In this document: in pieces, positions 2,899 to 36,034 of the stretch | How the letters are laid out: the number at the start of each line of letters is the position of its first letter | Position numbering within the stretch: position 1 is the first letter of the stretch | IMG/VR virus record: IMGVR_UViG_3300024520_000247 | Coordinates: 1-36,034 of that record | DNA: 36,034 nucleotides | DNA from: a virus | Strand: one strand, 5' to 3' | Position numbers and translations under genes: made by a program | Notes under the pieces: generated by a model | The model's input: only the letters and a program-made list of their open reading frames with translations | Databases searched by the model: none | Told to the model about the DNA's origin: nothing

Positions 2899-4047
2899 AT
2901 GAAAACAGGCAAAACACTGCAAGAGCTAGTCAATGAAATAGAGCGACGAGATCGCGGCATAGCCGATCACATTGCGAACACGGGCGCGCTCCATATCCGG
3001 CAAGAGGTCGTCGACGACCCCGACACGCGCAACCCCGCAACCCCGCAAGCCGAGATCGTGCCGCGCTATCTGCTCGACGTGCCCGGGATCGACACTTACG
3101 GGATCAACGACCTGGCGCACCGGCAACTTGGGACGTGGGCGGGTATTCCTGCGCGCTATTATGAGCGCATGCGACTCGACGCGCCCAACTTGTTTTTGCG
3201 TAACGTGCGGCACTGGATGCACACCGAACCCGCGCCGCGCATGCTGCGCACGCTCGACGGCAAGGTGCGCGCCGTGCTTTCGTCGTCGTTCCTGCGGATC
3301 AACAATCAAGACATGGCCGAGACAATGCTCGGCATGGTTGCAAAGCAGAAATCCGACGTCGTCAGTTGCGACGTTACCGACTCGCGCCTCTACATCAAAG
3401 GCACTTTCCCACACGTCGAGCGGCACCTCGTGCCGACACGGTCGCAAAAGGACAAAGGGCAGGTCGGCGACGTGCTGCGCTTCGGTTGGCAAATGCGCAA
3501 CAGCGAGGTTGGGCTCGGGTCTGCCGTACTCTCGATCTTTGCCGAAGTGCTTGCCTGCACCAACGGAATGACGTTCCCGAAGGAGTTTGCCGGGGTCTCT
3601 CGTCGGCACGTCGGCAAGCGTGTGCAGTTGACAGGGCACGCGATGCGACTGTCGAGCGCGCGCACACAACGCAAGGAGATCGAATACGTTCAGAGCGCAA
3701 TGCGAGACACGTTCGAGCATGTCGCGAACCCCGCAAACGCCGACGAGATTGTCGCGCGACTGAACAAAACGACCGAACGCGAAATCACGGGTGACGTGCA
3801 CGGCGCAGTCCAGACGCTGCGGCGCGAGGTCACGTTGAGCGAAAACGAGGGATCGAGCGTACTTGCGCACCTTGCGGCGGGCGGCGACTTGTCGCAGTGG
3901 GGCTTGATTAACGCTGTTACTCGCACCGCAGAGGATCTTGATAACTACGATCGGGCAAGCGAGCTAGAGTCAATCGGCGGCAAAATGATGGACATGTCCA
4001 ACGCTACATGGCGCCGCATTTCCGAAGCGCAACCCGTTCGGGCTTAA
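2899..4047 (+). CDS. DUF932 (phage/plasmid-like protein) family (382 aa)
   Basis: This is the last and largest rightward gene. It matches the DUF932 pattern: an N-terminal region followed by GIPARYYERM (about residues 82-91), then a long core with FLRNVRHWM, LDGKVRAVLSSSFLRINN (about residues 119-136), and a segment describing an AVLSIFAEVLACTNGMTF-like strand/helix. The length, about 380 residues, is typical. DUF932 proteins occur widely on phages and plasmids; their function is not settled, though they often lie among early or replication genes. The start is fixed by the repeated leader. A convergent hairpin follows 9 bp after the stop. Confidence 0.85.
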   Translation: MKTGKTLQELVNEIERRDRGIADHIANTGALHIRQEVVDDPDTRNPATPQAEIVPRYLLDVPGIDTYGINDLAHRQLGTWAGIPARYYERMRLDAPNLFLRNVRHWMHTEPAPRMLRTLDGKVRAVLSSSFLRINNQDMAETMLGMVAKQKSDVVSCDVTDSRLYIKGTFPHVERHLVPTRSQKDKGQVGDVLRFGWQMRNSEVGLGSAVLSIFAEVLACTNGMTFPKEFAGVSRRHVGKRVQLTGHAMRLSSARTQRKEIEYVQSAMRDTFEHVANPANADEIVARLNKTTEREITGDVHGAVQTLRREVTLSENEGSSVLAHLAAGGDLSQWGLINAVTRTAEDLDNYDRASELESIGGKMMDMSNATWRRISEAQPVRA

Positions 4048-4055
4048 CGCGCCCC

Positions 4056-4098
4056 CGACGAGAGTGCGCAGGATGCCGTATTCGGCGCGCTCTCGTCG
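4056..4098. terminator. Hairpin between convergent operons
   Basis: A 14-bp stem with one G-U pair joins 4056-4069 (CGACGAGAGTGCGC) to 4085-4098 (GCGCGCTCTCGTCG) across a 15-nt loop. It lies between the DUF932 stop (4047) and the endolysin stop (4147), where both operons end. There is no U-tract on either strand, so termination may need Rho or the hairpin may protect 3' ends instead. Confidence 0.55.
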
Positions 4099-4146
4099 AC
4101 CCCCTCACAACACACCCCCGAGACAATCTTGCCCGTTCTAGGGCTA

Positions 4147-4962
4147 CTAGCGCGGCAGGTCGGCGAAATTAGGCTGCGACGTGTCACCTATCAACGCAGC
4201 GAGCTTGCCCGCCGTGATGCCGGGTAGCGACGTGAGCCAATCAACACGCGCGACATTGCGGTCGGTGTGTTTCTCGACGCCAGGATCGTCGTGCTTGCTC
4301 GTGTATTGCCAGATCTGCCAACCGTCTACCCCTGCGGGCAGGTCGGGCAAGCTCGAACCTTCGAGGGTGCCGTCGTTGCTGCCGTAGCGCGGCAACCAGT
4401 ATGCGTAATTCTCCAACCCCGAGACGTCGCCGATTATGTCGCGCACCTTGCGCGCGCTCGTGTAAAGGCCTGCACCGCCAGGGTGCGCCTCGTCGACAAT
4501 GTCGAGCCATGTCGTAACCCAGGCTTTCGCGTCTGCCTTGCTGATCTCGCCCTTGATTTCTTCGAGGTCGAGCCAGAGCGGCAGATCGGCGGGCGGCAGA
4601 TCGGCGATTGCCGCCAAGAAGTCGTCGGCTTCGCGCTCTGCGTCGTCTGCGCCTCCAACCCCTAGCGTTGCGTAATGATAGAACCCGAGCAGCATGCCCG
4701 CCGACGCTGCCGCGTTTGCTTGCTCAACGAGCGCGGGTTGCTGCCAATCCTGCCCTTCGGTTGCCTTGACTATGCACCCGACATTACCTGCGGCGAGCGC
4801 TTCGGACCCGTCGATCTTGCCCTGATAATGATTCACGTCGAGCAGATAAACGAGATCCGGCAGGTCGTTCGCGCTCGGGTTGTCGTCGTGCTGCTCGTGC
4901 AAGGCTTCGAGCCTTCGAACGCGTTTTCGCAGTCGCCTGATTTGCCGTTCAAGATCGCCCAT
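4147..4962 (-). CDS. Endolysin, glycoside hydrolase family 25 (271 aa)
   Basis: The protein carries the GH25 muramidase fold motifs in order: LLDVNHYQGKID (residues 40-51, first catalytic-face Asp at 42), IVKATEG (64-70), GFYHYAT (93-99), LWLDLEE (129-135, the D-x-E pair with the likely catalytic Glu134), GLYTSARK (165-172), YWLPRYG (188-194) and DGWQIWQYTSK (213-223). It cuts the MurNAc-GlcNAc bond of peptidoglycan. The first 26 residues are an Arg/Leu heptad-like coiled coil (RQIRRLRKRVRRLEAL), unusual for this family; there is no signal peptide, so release needs a membrane-disrupting partner. It is the last gene of the leftward transcript, 12 bp after the TM/coiled-coil protein, which supports a lysis role. 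Confidence 0.9.
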   Translation of the reverse strand: MGDLERQIRRLRKRVRRLEALHEQHDDNPSANDLPDLVYLLDVNHYQGKIDGSEALAAGNVGCIVKATEGQDWQQPALVEQANAAASAGMLLGFYHYATLGVGGADDAEREADDFLAAIADLPPADLPLWLDLEEIKGEISKADAKAWVTTWLDIVDEAHPGGAGLYTSARKVRDIIGDVSGLENYAYWLPRYGSNDGTLEGSSLPDLPAGVDGWQIWQYTSKHDDPGVEKHTDRNVARVDWLTSLPGITAGKLAALIGDTSQPNFADLPR

Positions 4963-4974
4963 TATCCTGCCCCG

Positions 4975-5361
4975 TTAGTCTGTCGCAGCGTGTAACCGCT
5001 CGTTCAATTCGCCCAACTTGTCTCGGAAATCTCTTTCGAGCGCGCGCAGATCTAACCGCAGCGCCTCGCTTTGCGATCTGCAAAGATCGACTTCGCTCGA
5101 ATGATGCGCAAGCCGATCGTCGAAGTCGCTGCGCAACTCCTGTATTTGATCGGCGCACTCGGCAGACTCGCGGCCCTGCAAATGCAGCACCATGCCGATC
5201 ACCGCTGCGGCGATAACTCCCGAAACCGCAATCGCAACGTGCAGCGTCCAACCCTGCCGTTTTATCAGTCTGGTTTGGAGCGAATCGTCGGGCGCGCGCC
5301 CGATAACCTCGTCGATTGCGTTGCCGCTGTTGCCGCTGTTGCCGCTGTTTAGTGCAGGCAT
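4975..5361 (-). CDS. Single-TM coiled-coil protein, candidate i-spanin (128 aa)
   Basis: Start ATG 5361 overlaps the previous stop by one base (TAATG). The protein has a soluble N-terminus with an NSG triplet repeat (residues 5-14, from a 9-bp DNA repeat at 5322-5349), a basic stretch RLIKRQGW (31-38), one hydrophobic segment (39-59), and a long charged coiled coil to the end with two cysteines (about 68 and 92). The positive-inside rule puts the C-terminus outside the cytoplasm. That topology fits an inner-membrane spanin (Rz-type), and it lies directly upstream of the endolysin. It differs from lambda Rz in having a 38-residue cytoplasmic head. A holin-like or structural role is possible. 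Confidence 0.6.
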   Translation of the reverse strand: MPALNSGNSGNSGNAIDEVIGRAPDDSLQTRLIKRQGWTLHVAIAVSGVIAAAVIGMVLHLQGRESAECADQIQELRSDFDDRLAHHSSEVDLCRSQSEALRLDLRALERDFRDKLGELNERLHAATD

Positions 5362-21951: not shown

Positions 21952-22136
21952 GCAGGCAGAGTGCCCACGCGCGCATATGCCGTCAACCCTCGGCAACGTG
22001 CTCGTGGGTCAATCGCCGCGCTGCGCGGGCGAAAGAAATGCGCCGACGTTATGAGCGACACGGGGATCGCACGTCGACGCAGGGGCGACCCCCGCAACGC
22101 CGCAACAGAGCACAACCCGAAACCGTTGTCGACGTG
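21952..22136. other. 185-bp gap between Mu F-like and protease genes
   Basis: No ORF here looks natural; the frames that remain open are Arg/Cys-rich shadows. The gap shrinks to 140 bp if TTG 21996 is the protease start. It could hold a small gene lost by mutation or a control element; I see no hairpin or repeat of note. Confidence 0.4.
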
Positions 22137-25790: not shown

Positions 25791-26071
25791 CAGTTGAGCG
25801 TCCGATCCCAGCAGTCAGCTTCGAGCACGGCGCAACCTACCGCACGAGCGTCGAGCAGCAACTCGACAACGAGCGTCGTGCCGTCGCATTGCGCGGCAAT
25901 GTGTGCGCTCGACGAGCGCGCATACTGCGGCAGACAATCGGCGAGCAGAGCGCGCACAAGGTGCCAGCCTTTCGCTCTGATCGTGATCGCTTCGAGGCAG
26001 AGAAGGTCGATCAACTCTCGGCGCACCTGTCGAGCTAGTGTTTCCTCAAGTGCGCAGCGCCAACCGTTCAC
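25790..26071 (-). CDS. Small protein between the terminase genes (93 aa)
   Basis: GTG 26071 overlaps the previous stop as GTGA, and the stop overlaps the terL start as TGATG; these junctions make it very likely a real gene. The sequence has helical segments with Leu/Arg (ETLARQVRRELIDLLCLEA, residues 9-27) and a C-terminal beta-rich half with cysteines (AVGCAVLEADCWDRTLN). I do not recognise the family. Its position between two terminase subunits could mean an accessory of packaging, or merely a small gene in the operon. The open frame running far upstream from here is a shadow of the small terminase gene. Confidence 0.68.
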   Translation of the reverse strand: MNGWRCALEETLARQVRRELIDLLCLEAITIRAKGWHLVRALLADCLPQYARSSSAHIAAQCDGTTLVVELLLDARAVGCAVLEADCWDRTLN

Positions 26072-26736
26072 GAGTCGCGCTCGACGGCAAGGTCGGCGAG
26101 TTTGCGCGCAAGCTCGCGAGCCTCTGGGTTGCTCATGAGCGAGCGCATTGCGCGGCGCGATCTGCGTGCGTCGCTGCGCTCTTGCTGCTCTGCGTTCGTC
26201 GCGTCGATCCGCTCGGTTGCCTCGCCGCGCGCAAGCATTTCGGTGCGCACCGCTTGCCCGATTGCGGTTGCGCTGCTCTGTACTAGCTTGATCAAATCCT
26301 GCGGCGGCATTGTCGCGAGTTGCGCAAGGATCGCGTTGCGGTCGTGCTGCACGAGTTGCGCTGCGGCTTGCGTCGGCAGCATCAACACCGCTTGCAGGGC
26401 AACGGCAGAGTTTGCAGCGCGTCGGCCCATGTCGAGCACGGCGCGCTCGTGCTCTTGCACAAGCAGCTTTCGACAGTGCCGATCCCAGGCTCGCGCTCGG
26501 TCCTTCCATCGCCAGGAATAGTACGCGTCGAGCCAACTGCCCGGTGCCTGCGTCGTTTTGCCGCTTGTGCGCCGCCAGATTGCTTGCATGCTTCGCGCGC
26601 TGCCTGCGTCTCGATACAGGGCGAAGCGATCGTGCCAGCGTCCTGATTCGTCGGGTTGTTGTTCCCACGGTTGTCGGTCGTCGGCAAGCGCTCTCGGTCG
26701 TCGTGCGTCTGCGTATTTGCTGCGTTTTTTGCTCAT
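26068..26736 (-). CDS. Small terminase subunit-like protein (222 aa)
   Basis: The N-terminal half has a pattern seen in many phage small terminases: ESGRWHDRFALYRDAG (residues 30-45), then WLDAYYSWRWKDRARAWDRH (68-87), the W-x(2)-R-A-x-A-W helix region, followed by long helices. The C-terminal third is rich in Arg/Glu with ARELARKLADLAVERDS. It lies two genes upstream of terL. Start ATG 26736 (MSKKRSKYADARRPR) has only a weak upstream purine stretch. It should bind the packaging site and start cutting. Recognition by pattern; the direct neighbourhood of terL supports it. Confidence 0.78.
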   Translation of the reverse strand: MSKKRSKYADARRPRALADDRQPWEQQPDESGRWHDRFALYRDAGSARSMQAIWRRTSGKTTQAPGSWLDAYYSWRWKDRARAWDRHCRKLLVQEHERAVLDMGRRAANSAVALQAVLMLPTQAAAQLVQHDRNAILAQLATMPPQDLIKLVQSSATAIGQAVRTEMLARGEATERIDATNAEQQERSDARRSRRAMRSLMSNPEARELARKLADLAVERDS

Positions 26737-26806
26737 GCTTTGCCGTCTGCCTGTCGTCAAGCGTGCCGATCTGCGTTTGCGTTGTCGAGCGCAAATCGTT
26801 CGTTGG

Positions 26807-27049
26807 TCAGACGATAGCGCGCGAAACGATAGCGCGCGCGACCCCCGAGTCTGCGCAGACAATGTCGGCAGCGGCGAGAGGCTTGTCGACGAGTCGCACG
26901 GTTACGTCGAGAAACACGGCAGAACAGTCGGCGATCTCTGCTCGTCTTGACGCGCTGCGGGCTAGTTCGTCGATCCTGCTGTTTACCGTCGCCATACAGT
27001 GCCGCACCGCTGCGTTGATTGCGGCTTGTGTCGGTTGTTTGTCGTTCAT
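26807..27049 (-). CDS. Small unrecognised protein upstream of the terminase (80 aa)
   Basis: ATG 27049 follows motif copy 4 by 6 bp and has ACGGGGCAAA in front. The protein begins MNDKQPTQAAINAAVRHCMA, is largely alpha-helical at first, then beta-rich (SAVFLDVTVRLVDKPLAAAD, about residues 43-62), and ends with a duplicated RAIV motif caused by a direct repeat of gatagcgcgcg at 26817-26840. No family is recognised. The motif copy just upstream and the packaging genes downstream suggest it opens the late operon. Confidence 0.58.
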   Translation of the reverse strand: MNDKQPTQAAINAAVRHCMATVNSRIDELARSASRRAEIADCSAVFLDVTVRLVDKPLAAADIVCADSGVARAIVSRAIV

Positions 27050-27122: not shown

Positions 27123-27629
27123 CTATTCGGTGCCGACTTCGTTGCCCCACACGTCCCAGCGTTCGCGCTTTGCTCGTGCGAACATTTCGAGGCGCGGGCC
27201 TGGCGAGACTTGCTCCATTTTGCGGTATGCCTCGCAAGGCTTGACGCTATGCGCGCCCCGCTTTGCCTCGATCAACGTCGACTCGTTGCGCACGAGCGGG
27301 GGCAGCGTGCCGCGCACACCGAACAAAAGTTGCTCGGTCTGCCCCCTGTAATAGTAGCCGAGACCGAAGCGATCCTTTGCCCACGTCAACGTTGTGACAT
27401 AGCGAAAGCCGATCGCGCGCATTACGTCGAGCGCGTCGGGTAGCTTGTTGTTTGTTGTCCACAGGTACAAGTGGCAATCCCGATCCGGTTGCCAGCAACT
27501 CGCCCCGAGAATAACGTCGACGATCTGCGGCGTTTTCAAGAGAGCATAATGCCGATCCGCGCCGCGTTTAACTCTGCCCCCGCCTGTCTCGTTCCAGGGT
27601 GGATCAATCGCGATCGTGCGGTAATACAT
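27123..27629 (-). CDS. MT-A70 family adenine methyltransferase (168 aa)
   Basis: The catalytic motif DPPW is at residues 9-12 (TIAIDPPWNETGGG), with an N-terminal location as in short phage MT-A70 enzymes. Further conserved parts are HLYLWTTNNKLPDALDVM (residues 53-70), FRYVTTLTWAKDRFGLG (75-91), HSVKP (127-131, SAM-binding side), and LEMFARAKRERWDVWGNE (147-164). The enzyme transfers methyl from SAM to adenine N6, in phages most often in DNA. ATG 27629 overlaps the previous stop as GTGATG; GTG 27632 is equally placed. No restriction partner is nearby, so self-protection or regulation of the phage DNA is most likely. Confidence 0.9.
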   Translation of the reverse strand: MYYRTIAIDPPWNETGGGRVKRGADRHYALLKTPQIVDVILGASCWQPDRDCHLYLWTTNNKLPDALDVMRAIGFRYVTTLTWAKDRFGLGYYYRGQTEQLLFGVRGTLPPLVRNESTLIEAKRGAHSVKPCEAYRKMEQVSPGPRLEMFARAKRERWDVWGNEVGTE

Positions 27630-27979
27630 CACGCCCGTTTGCCGTGCCTGTACGGTCGCGCCTCGTTGTGTATCAGCTTGTTTGCGATTGCGGCTTGCAG
27701 GTTAATGTCGAGCGCGCCCGCTAGATCGGCGACGCGGATCACAATGTCGGCAAGTTCGCTCGGCAACCCCTCGGGCTTGCCGTTGTCATCATACAGGGTT
27801 TCGGTCGGCGCGATGTTGATCGAGCGCACGACCTCGGCTGCCTCTGCGGCCTCGCTGCAGATCAACATTAGTTTCGCGAGGATCACGGTTGGGTCGTGCG
27901 GGTCTTGCCCGTCCCAAAACCCGTTCGCGCTCGCCCCAAGGTGTGCGCGTCGTGTCAATTCGTTGATCGTTGCTGTCAT
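27629..27979 (-). CDS. MazG-like nucleotide pyrophosphohydrolase (116 aa)
   Basis: The all-helical MazG signature is present: E-x2-E-x2-E (SEAAEAAEVVR, residues 42-52; Glu43, 46 and 49) and E-x2-D (SELADIVIRVADLA, 74-87; Glu75, Asp78), which bind Mg. The C-terminus has NKLIHNEARPYRHGKR, typical of phage MazG-like proteins. Such enzymes hydrolyse NTP/dNTP to NMP and pyrophosphate; some phage forms lower alarmone or act on modified dNTPs. ATG 27979 has AGGG at a suitable distance. It lies between glycosyltransferase and MT-A70 genes, which could connect it to nucleotide or DNA modification. Confidence 0.82.
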   Translation of the reverse strand: MTATINELTRRAHLGASANGFWDGQDPHDPTVILAKLMLICSEAAEAAEVVRSINIAPTETLYDDNGKPEGLPSELADIVIRVADLAGALDINLQAAIANKLIHNEARPYRHGKRA

Positions 27980-27991
27980 CTTGTCACCCTA

Positions 27992-29281
27992 TCAAAGCAC
28001 GCTGATCCGCTGTTCGCCTGCCCTCATGCACACCTTGCCCCCAGCGAGTCGGGCCAGGCGAATCACCTTTGCGAGCGGGAACGATTGATCCCCAACCGGC
28101 CCTTTGCCGTTAATGCGCACCCGCTGGAGCTTGTTGTAAAACTCCCGAACGGTTGCGCCTTTTGCGCCTTGCTTGCGTAGTATTGCGCCCGCTTCGGCGA
28201 CGAGTCGTTCGTCGACGTTGATCGCGTGTGCCTCGACGAGTTGCCCGAACAGGTCGCAATACCTCTCGACCCACAGTCGTTGCGTGTAGCTTGCAAGCGT
28301 GTGTTTGCGCACGAGCGCACCTGCGCGGGCGCGCTCTGTCGGGTCGGTTATCAGTCGGCGCAAGTGCGCCTTTTGCTCGTCTCGGCTTGCGAACAAATAA
28401 GGGTATCCGTTGCCGCTCGCCGCGCCCGTGATCTGCGGGAACGTTACCGAATCGGGAGCGACTAGCGGTTGCCCCTGCGCCATCGACTCGACTGCCGATA
28501 TGCAGAACGTCTCGTGTACGCTGTTCGTCACGTTAAGATGACACCCAGACAGCGCGTCGAGATACTCTGCCCGAGTTGCGCACAAGCGCACCTCGACAAA
28601 CGGCAACGAGCGAATTGCGCCAACGTTGTCAATCGTGCTGCTCGTGTAGCGCACGCGAAACCGCAACCCCTCTTGCCATAGGTCGTTGAGCACGTCGAAG
28701 GTTACCCGCCAGCGCTTGTACCCTTGCAAGCGGTGATTGTAGGCAATCACAGGCAGATCGGTTTGGTGATCGACCTCTTTCCATTCGTTCTCGATCGTGC
28801 CGAGATCGATCCGGTGTGCGGTTGATTCGATCCGCGCGAGCATTGCCGGGGATAGTCTGTCTCTCGCTTCCTCGATCAGCATGTCGCGCATATGATCCGA
28901 GTTGAACACGTTTGCGTCGGCGCAGATCGAGCCCATGAGTTGCAACCACAAAACGTGCTCGTATGTAAGCTCGCCCCCGATTTCCCAGTTGGGCAAACTG
29001 CGGTGCATTGTGTAATTGTGCGCCGCAACGATTGCCGCCCGTTGCGCGGGGTAGAAATGCAGCGAGCCCGCCATTTTGATCTGGGCAGCGATCTCGACGA
29101 GGTTGCACCAGACAACGTCGAACCCTATGCGCTTGAACAGTCGATCGTACCAGGCACCGTCAAACGTGCACGCGTTCGCAAACTTGCGCGTTGATATACG
29201 CTGCGGCACTCGGGTCACATTAGGCAACCGAAACAACCCGTCGTCGTCGTATGCGTAACCGCTGCCCGCGTCGGGAAACAC
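27992..29281 (-). CDS. GT-B (GT4-like) glycosyltransferase, possibly the 3' part of a ParB fusion (429 aa)
   Basis: The N-terminal half contains a phosphate-binding-like strand (VVWCNLVEIAAQ) and NYTMHRSLP; the C-terminal half has QGYKRWRVTFDVL and the E-rich donor motif HETFCISAVESMAQGQPLVA (residues 259-278), typical of GT4/DUF3524-like glycosyltransferases. A further 50-residue tail (TVREFYNKLQRVR...) could bind DNA or another partner. The only in-frame start is a GTG at 29281 without RBS, inside the natural-looking sequence QFVVVFPDAGSGYAYDDDG that begins before it. In-frame stop TAA at 29318-29320. The upstream ParB frame overlaps it by 62 bp; a +1 shift would join them (see findings). 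Acceptor and sugar are unknown. Confidence 0.8.
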   Translation of the reverse strand: MFPDAGSGYAYDDDGLFRLPNVTRVPQRISTRKFANACTFDGAWYDRLFKRIGFDVVWCNLVEIAAQIKMAGSLHFYPAQRAAIVAAHNYTMHRSLPNWEIGGELTYEHVLWLQLMGSICADANVFNSDHMRDMLIEEARDRLSPAMLARIESTAHRIDLGTIENEWKEVDHQTDLPVIAYNHRLQGYKRWRVTFDVLNDLWQEGLRFRVRYTSSTIDNVGAIRSLPFVEVRLCATRAEYLDALSGCHLNVTNSVHETFCISAVESMAQGQPLVAPDSVTFPQITGAASGNGYPYLFASRDEQKAHLRRLITDPTERARAGALVRKHTLASYTQRLWVERYCDLFGQLVEAHAINVDERLVAEAGAILRKQGAKGATVREFYNKLQRVRINGKGPVGDQSFPLAKVIRLARLAGGKVCMRAGEQRISVL

Positions 29282-29498
29282 GACAACGAATTGGTGCGGT
29301 CGCCCCTGCGCGCTTGTTTACAACGACCGGCTTGCGCTGCCCGTACCGTCGCAAACTCGCCTTGATTGCGTCGAGGTTGCGCTCGTCGTGCAAGCGGGCG
29401 TTTGCGGGATCTCGGCGCAGGTCGTCGACCCTTACGGCAAGCGGGCGCAACCCCTCGACGATATGAGCGAGATCGATCTCGGGTGTGTGCGTGATCAC
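29220..29498 (-). CDS. Truncated ParB-like domain, out of frame with the glycosyltransferase (92 aa)
   Basis: GTG 29498 overlaps the previous stop as TAGTG. The first 62 residues match the N-terminal half of phage ParB/Srx domains: VDDLRRDPANARLHDERNLD (residues 24-43), AIKASLRRYGQRKPVVVNK (44-62). The expected continuation with the G-H/N-G-x-R/E motif is absent; instead the frame runs into Arg-rich nonsense (CRVSRRGQRLRIRRRR) to stop 29220. From Gly65 the glycosyltransferase frame continues naturally in +1. It is either a broken gene, a recombination junction, or a fusion by frameshift. On its own the ParB fragment should not be functional. Confidence 0.7.
   Translation of the reverse strand: MITHTPEIDLAHIVEGLRPLAVRVDDLRRDPANARLHDERNLDAIKASLRRYGQRKPVVVNKRAGATAPIRCRVSRRGQRLRIRRRRVVSVA
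29302..29306 (-). other. Possible +1 shift site at a run of four G (ParB to glycosyltransferase)
   Basis: Minus strand GCA GGG GCG A: after codon GGG (29306-29304) a one-base forward shift onto the fourth G gives CGA CCG CAC CAA and then the glycosyltransferase frame. A single extra G in the assembly would look the same. Confidence 0.5.
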
Positions 29499-32055: not shown

Positions 32056-32937
32056 CTAGGTTCCACAGATCCCATCACACTCATTCCCCCAAAACAGATC
32101 AAGCTGACCTCGATCTGCCAGATCGCGAAGGGTTGGCATCCGTTCGTCCCAGTTAATAGAGCGCAGGGTCACTCCTGGGACGATTTTTTGCACAAAAACG
32201 TCGTCCGCATCGAGCGTCGTGTCGGACGCATACACCCGACGCATGCGCTCCTCATATTGTGCTGCGCGCTCATATCCTCTTGGATCTTCATTTTGCAATC
32301 TCTGCCACTCCTCTGCCGAGTGATACGGACAAAAAACGCAAGCCGAGCGGGGGGGTTTCGGAAATCCTTCCTCGCGCATCCAGCGCAAACAATCCACCCG
32401 AGACATATTGAGATCAATTAGCGGGTACCTGTTAACCGACCAAGGTACCTTGCTATCTGTCATCCTGTGCGCCTCGTCTGTCGATATGCCCAGCCATTGA
32501 TTGACGATCACGGCATTCCCGAGACGTTTACGCGTTGTGCCCGTCAATCTGCGAATCTCCCGGCGCACCACTTCAATCTTGAAATCTCGCGTACACTTTC
32601 TGCGTATTCCACCCCCTGCCTTGCCGTCGTTGTATGTCCACAGCGGCACCCCACCACTCACATAACTCTGCCCCGTTTTCCCTGAAATTTTAACAATGCC
32701 CTCGGCATCTTCTAACGCTCGATCGGGCCAGCGTGTAACCCGGTAAATCGGGAAGCCAACAAGAGCTTCAAGTACATCGAGCCACTCGTAAACTGCCTCT
32801 GGCTCGGCTCCGGTGTCGGCAAATATCGCCCCATCTATAGGTGGCAGCGCGCCGCGTTCAACCATTAGCGCGATTGCCGACGATTGCACCCCCGCACCCA
32901 GCGAAAGGAATGTGGCAGGCAACTTTGGGATCTTCAT
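32056..32937 (-). CDS. PAPS-reductase-like PP-loop protein (293 aa)
   Basis: The PP-loop SLGAGVQSSA (residues 12-21) fits the ATP pyrophosphatase/PAPS reductase family; FADTGAEPEAVYEWL (39-53) follows as in phage members. Cysteines at 115 (RRKCTRDFK), 200 and 203 (SACVFCPYH) and 287 and 291 could bind a metal or Fe-S cluster. Function in phages is unknown; relatives act in sulfur transfer, tRNA thiolation and DNA phosphorothioation (DndC). RBS CAGGAG lies before ATG 32937. The gene has visibly lower GC and different third-base use than its neighbours and is flanked by 45- and 81-bp gaps, so it is probably a later acquisition. Confidence 0.82.
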   Translation of the reverse strand: MKIPKLPATFLSLGAGVQSSAIALMVERGALPPIDGAIFADTGAEPEAVYEWLDVLEALVGFPIYRVTRWPDRALEDAEGIVKISGKTGQSYVSGGVPLWTYNDGKAGGGIRRKCTRDFKIEVVRREIRRLTGTTRKRLGNAVIVNQWLGISTDEAHRMTDSKVPWSVNRYPLIDLNMSRVDCLRWMREEGFPKPPRSACVFCPYHSAEEWQRLQNEDPRGYERAAQYEERMRRVYASDTTLDADDVFVQKIVPGVTLRSINWDERMPTLRDLADRGQLDLFWGNECDGICGT

Positions 32938-33018
32938 GCGTAAAACTCCTGACGACGAGCACCACCTCGCCAAACGTCTCGGCGAAGCGGTGCCCGTCGC
33001 GGCCCCATGGCGAGGGGA

Positions 33019-35899: not shown

Positions 35900-35928
35900 T
35901 CAAACTTGTTCGAGGTTGTCAAACTTGA
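35900..35928. repeat. Repeated tcaaacttg half-sites at the head of the leftward operon
   Basis: tcaaacttg occurs at 35900-35908 and again at 35920-35928, 20 bp apart, i.e. two helical turns. On the minus strand the second copy contains TTGACA at 35922-35917, a perfect -35 hexamer for the leftward genes, but no convincing -10 follows. They may form an operator next to the promoter. Confidence 0.5.
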
Positions 35929-36034
35929 CGTTTCGTATTGCGTATGTACGCTGGTCGCTGGAAGCGCTCGCATCGCTGTCGCTCGTCGCTCGCATCGCTG
36001 TCGCTCGTCGCTCGTCGCAATACCGACAGGCACG
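35913..36034. repeat. Right copy of 122-bp terminal direct repeat
   Basis: Matches 1-122 except C at 35929 (T at 17). Contains the same 22-bp tandem repeat at about 35967-36010. Confidence 0.93.

Follow-up and report, generated by a model that had tools for sequence, protein, structure and literature searches.

In other phage and plasmid proteins, ParB/Srx domains have been reported as NTP-dependent, mostly non-specific nucleases (PMC5512222). In the Delepquintaviruses DLP3 and DLP5, one cassette holds glycosyltransferase (GT), ParB and TerL genes close together, along with genes for a nucleotide-sugar epimerase, an aminotransferase and a methyltransferase (PMC7326821; NC_042082). All of the DLP3 and DLP5 genes are intact, and their GT is a remote relative of the one described here (E=2e-9 on the profile of our alignment A2). 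MshA, BshA and PimA, retaining GT4 enzymes with a GT-B fold, have the Glycos_transf_1 domain and the EX7E motif in common with this GT family, but the sequence identity is just 11-17%. In GT-B enzymes, strand β1 and helix α1 are part of the acceptor-side Rossmann domain; the copy analysed here lacks both.

Two kinds of phage loci (designated L with a number) come closer. The first comprises modules of a ParB-domain gene and a DNA methyltransferase gene (phrog_498, phrog_21315), exemplified by L005, where the order is ParB, methyltransferase and then two genes resembling TerS and TerL. The ParB half analysed here is closest to this type, and both cassettes contain a methyltransferase, here of the MT-A70 type. 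Our locus differs in that its ParB gene lacks the second half and in that a GT gene and a MazG-like gene lie between ParB and the methyltransferase. The second kind comprises pairs of a GT of the same family and an adjacent or nearby ParB-like gene (L001, L085 and L160, and the Arthrobacter phages DanielleIgnace and Kitkat). These pairs consist of two complete, separate genes, whereas here both are truncated and joined; in the two Arthrobacter phages the order is GT and then ParB, the reverse of the other pairs. We found no description of the ParB–GT pair as a unit in the literature searched, and as such it is apparently undescribed.

Two open frames meet at a short junction

The window, i.e. 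the whole stretch of DNA analysed, is an IMG/VR virus contig of 36,034 bases from a metagenome. Its ends form a direct terminal repeat of 122 bases (positions 1-122 and 35913-36034, 121 of 122 bases identical), and the record may thus be a complete genome; the repeat itself holds a duplicated CGCTCGCATCGCTGTCGCTCGTCGCT-like unit. The features of the cassette are listed in Table 1. The terminase small subunit gene puts the cassette where many relatives have it, and on the replication side of the cassette there is a PAPS-reductase-like gene (32056-32973; phrog_424, E=3e-40).

Table 1. Positions of the cassette genes and of the elements at the ParB–GT join in the window
Feature	Position	Strand	Basis
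ParB-like 5' half-domain gene, 65 codons from GTG 29498	29304..29498	-	PHROG matches; 72% identity to L005
Arg-rich out-of-frame tail of the ParB frame, overlying GT codons	29220..29303	-	Reading frame and G+C phase change
Junction CAGGGGC; homology blocks abut or share few bases	29302..29308	-	tblastn ends
GT4-type GT-B-fold glycosyltransferase frame without start codon, β1 and α1	27992..29317	-	Pfam, alignments A1 and A2, L085 model, Foldseek
Sole conventional start (GTG) before the body of the truncated GT frame	29279..29281	-	Within conserved β2 (FVVvFPD)
MT-A70-type DNA adenine methyltransferase, same cassette	27123..27632	-	PF05063, E=3e-15; phrog_359
MazG-like nucleotide pyrophosphohydrolase	27629..27979	-	phrog_3301, E=2e-23
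Terminase small subunit	26068..26862	-	phrog_6299, E=6e-12

The GTG that opens the ParB frame overlaps the preceding stop codon (TAGTG) and lies behind a G-rich stretch; the frame continues for 92 codons and stops at 29220. The GT frame, shifted by +1, is open from 29317 to 27992. The preliminary description, made from this sequence, had noted both frames and proposed that a +1 shift at GGGG joins them into one product; the arithmetic was reproduced, since skipping one G at 29303 yields 65 + 436 codons. Between ~29320 and ~29260 the phase of the position-specific G+C pattern shifts by +1, indicating that the ParB frame is coding up to the join and the GT frame after it, beyond what chance would give. 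Neither remaining frame shows decay, which suggests that the event is either recent or artificial.

The ParB frame encodes half of a domain

The first 62-65 codons of the ParB frame match ParB families (phrog_620, E=8e-9 over residues 21-62; also phrog_723 and phrog_498), although the Pfam search gave no match for this half. Its best relative is the ParB of L005, with 72% identity over 57 aa in a tblastn match ending at 29304, and it scores 70 bits against a profile of L005-type ParBs. Beyond 29304 the frame is Arg-rich and without a family match. The N-terminal β-α-β part with the NAR..h/NLDAIKASL..GQ.KPVVV signature of the ParB/Srx-like domain is present, and the gene lacks the second half, to which the GNG/GNxR motif, helix α2 and strand β4 belong. 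On the structural model of the complete L005 ParB (86-89), the part kept in the window corresponds to β1-α1-β2, with homology ending after β2, and the lost part comprises β3 with the GNG motif, α2 and β4. The preliminary view of a ParB-like domain that is lost after about 62 residues, with its second half missing, was therefore correct.

The ParB half is closer to the methyltransferase-associated type than to the ParB that adjoins the nearest GT relative, L085, to which it is just 29% identical over 41 aa. The difference between the two values (72% against 29%) suggests that the lost stretch may have been longer, or that modules with separate origins may have been brought together at the join.

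The glycosyltransferase lacks its N-terminus

The C-terminal part of the GT is of the GT4 type and scores above the curated cut-off of its Pfam family (PF00534, E=7e-8). It has the nucleotide-sugar-binding domain with the EX7E motif (EtfcisavE), which is aligned in nearly all members. A GT4 enzyme also has a complete N-terminal Rossmann domain opening with β1-loop-α1, and of this domain the first ~35-40 residues are gone. Comparison of the AlphaFold model of the intact L085 GT (mean pLDDT 90) with MshA, BshA and PimA by Foldseek gave E values of ~1e-12 and TM scores of 0.57-0.63. In this model β1 spans residues 2-6, α1 18-33 and β2 38-44. The homology of the window GT to L085, which starts at 29308 in tblastn, opens at L085 residue ~34-38, just before β2. 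The extra N-terminus of the relatives holds β1, α1 and a near-invariant P..S..N.DS.Y motif; in the 23-sequence alignment A2 the near-invariant columns P7, S10, N15, D17, S18 and Y20 are all missing from the window.

The GT sequence upstream of GTG 29281 had been described as natural, and indeed QGRPH-QFVVVFPD aligns with RARPDWHFVVIFPD of L085. This GTG is, as had been noted, the only ATG, GTG or TTG before the main body, and no Shine-Dalgarno sequence was seen before it. Since it lies inside the conserved strand β2, it is not the ancestral start.

Relatives carry two separate, complete genes

With the window protein as the query three GT loci were retrieved, and 77 viral loci with a search based on an alignment. 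The ~80 phage loci with this GT that we fetched formed 39 clusters at 90% identity; the nearest relative, L085, is 46-48% identical to the window GT. In each of the 38 clusters that no contig end truncates, the GT reaches ~35-40 residues further in the N-terminal direction than in the window, with the pattern hhV.PM.S..-NADSNY and a motif of the DS[NTC]Y type. Upstream DNA of 400 nt or more is available for 35 clusters, and 33 of these have a complete ParB-domain gene directly before the GT. Where the GT start could be assigned, most of the 33 show an overlap of exactly 19 nt between ParB and GT; in a few, the overlap is 4 nt or there is a gap of 1-3 nt. Examples of the pair are found in L001 (4345-6236), in L143 (2753-4614) and across L085-L161, and the exact 19-nt overlap recurs in many different phage contigs. 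In the two exceptions, L087 and L159, ParB genes lie farther upstream. Genes resembling the terminase small and large subunits, as judged from their sequences, follow in several of the GT loci.

No GT relative was confirmed in the genome_contigs collection, and the window GT had no tblastn match in the phage collection. Searches with the intact L085 and L143 GTs found the Arthrobacter phages. In DanielleIgnace, gp97 (GT) and gp98 (ParB-like nuclease) share 4 nt and a methyltransferase follows close behind; gp93 and gp95 of Kitkat are similarly arranged. The scores on the A2 profile (gp97 of DanielleIgnace, E=6e-35; gp93 of Kitkat, E=1e-24) place these GTs in the same family.

ParB and GT were joined in one frame, or by a frameshift, in none of the 39 clusters. 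In relatives, isolated phages among them, the GT thus has a start of its own and a complete ParB gene stands apart from it, the arrangement that the preliminary description had itself set against its proposal of a single 501-residue ParB–GT fusion. That proposal is abandoned here.

Origin of the junction

Both genes have lost the ends that face each other, which is the signature of a deletion or an illegitimate join. ParB homology ends at 29304, GT homology starts at 29308, and nothing lies between. We consider it very probable that a deletion or illegitimate recombination spanning two once-separate genes left this join as its scar, whether in the virus or in the assembly alone. The ancestor would have had a ParB/Srx-domain gene with a GT4-type GT gene directly downstream, between the replication genes and the terminase. 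At the join ParB would have lost its second half and the GT its first ~35-40 codons, including the start codon, β1 and α1, and the rest of the GT would have been left in the +1 frame. If the ancestor was like L085, L001 or L160, the loss would amount to ~0.5 kb or more, as estimated from the lengths of their genes. Both truncated products are probably non-functional and, judged from the relatives, there is no new fused enzyme here. The earlier suggestion of a recombination that replaced a methyltransferase holds in part: a recombination or deletion, with loss on both sides, is what we favour, and the ParB half is of the type that adjoins DNA methyltransferases.

The missing ParB and GT parts were not found elsewhere in the window, of which all frames were searched. 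The searches brought up no near-identical virus in which the arrangement is intact, the exact DNA of the junction had no match in other viral contigs, and TerL peptide patterns designed for close kin matched no other contig. A degenerate DNA pattern over the β2 region of the GT matched the L085 contig alone.

The scar may have been made by the assembly, through collapse or chimerism of a mixed viral population, with both genes intact in the real virus; we give this somewhat less than an even chance. The record is a metagenomic contig, and a loss on two sides that leaves both remainders undecayed is in keeping with a technical join. Spanning the join is a 13-mer (CGCAGGGGCGACC, 29298-29310) with one inverted copy in the record, at 22078-22090, slightly above the rough expectation. 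However, no long direct repeat marks the join within the record, and the 122-base terminal repeat suggests a coherent, complete assembly. The inverted copy of the 13-mer, 7 kb from the junction, is of doubtful meaning and could be due to chance.

It is very unlikely that the truncated GT works, either from GTG 29281 or from an upstream non-standard codon, as an enzyme with a naturally shorter N-terminus in this lineage. Its EX7E catalytic motif and remaining frame are intact, but every other member of the family has the N-terminus, and the available GTG lies within a core strand with no Shine-Dalgarno sequence seen before it. We find it hardly credible that a one-base sequencing or assembly indel has split an otherwise intact in-frame ParB–GT fusion. 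The GGGG homopolymer at the join is a typical indel site, but repair of the frame restores neither the second ParB half nor the β1-α1 of the GT, which is present in all relatives; since large domain parts are missing on both sides, the earlier idea of such an indel is insufficient. The least credible reading, in which programmed +1 frameshifting at GGGG yields a functional 501-residue product, had also been considered; it was rejected together with the in-frame fusion: both frames are open over the join and a shift gives a single long product, but no relative is fused or frame-shifted, each half of the product lacks core secondary structure, and the ParB frame meets neither a stop codon nor any other stalling signal at the site, continuing for 28 more codons.

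Deletion or illegitimate recombination across neighbouring genes can thus look like a frameshifted fusion when a single genome is read, and one would-be new enzyme fusion is struck off the list.

Possible role of the intact pair

The conserved, overlapping ParB–GT pair provides a concrete candidate glycosylation system, with relatives in culturable Arthrobacter phages, and its designation as a predicted DNA- or virion-glycosylation module is plausible. We tentatively suggest, as a possibility still short of probable, that the intact ancestors were an undescribed system of a ParB/Srx protein and a GT4-type GT, translationally coupled, located near the terminase and sometimes accompanied by nucleotide-sugar genes, which decorated phage DNA (or some component of the virion); in that case the window would hold a broken copy. 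Nucleotide-sugar-like genes, as recognised by inspection of the sequence, stand beside the GT in some loci (epimerase-like in L085, nucleotidyltransferase-like in L159). MT-A70 or other methyltransferases are often close to the GT, as in the window, L002 and the Arthrobacter phages. A gene of the thymidylate-synthase/hydroxymethylase family (PF00303) was not found in the record.

The tRNA-queuosine α-mannosyltransferase is a GT that modifies nucleic acid. The L085 GT (3908-5290), one of 23 members, matched the N-terminal family of this enzyme with 20 bits against a cut-off of 25; being below the cut-off and confined to one member, the match was set aside as evidence. At L002 (2-2136), an incomplete locus at a contig edge, an MT-A70-like methyltransferase gene takes the position of ParB immediately before the GT. 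At L159 (2165-3501), two tandem ParB-domain genes lie upstream of the GT, which is followed by a kinase-like and a sugar-nucleotidyltransferase-like gene.
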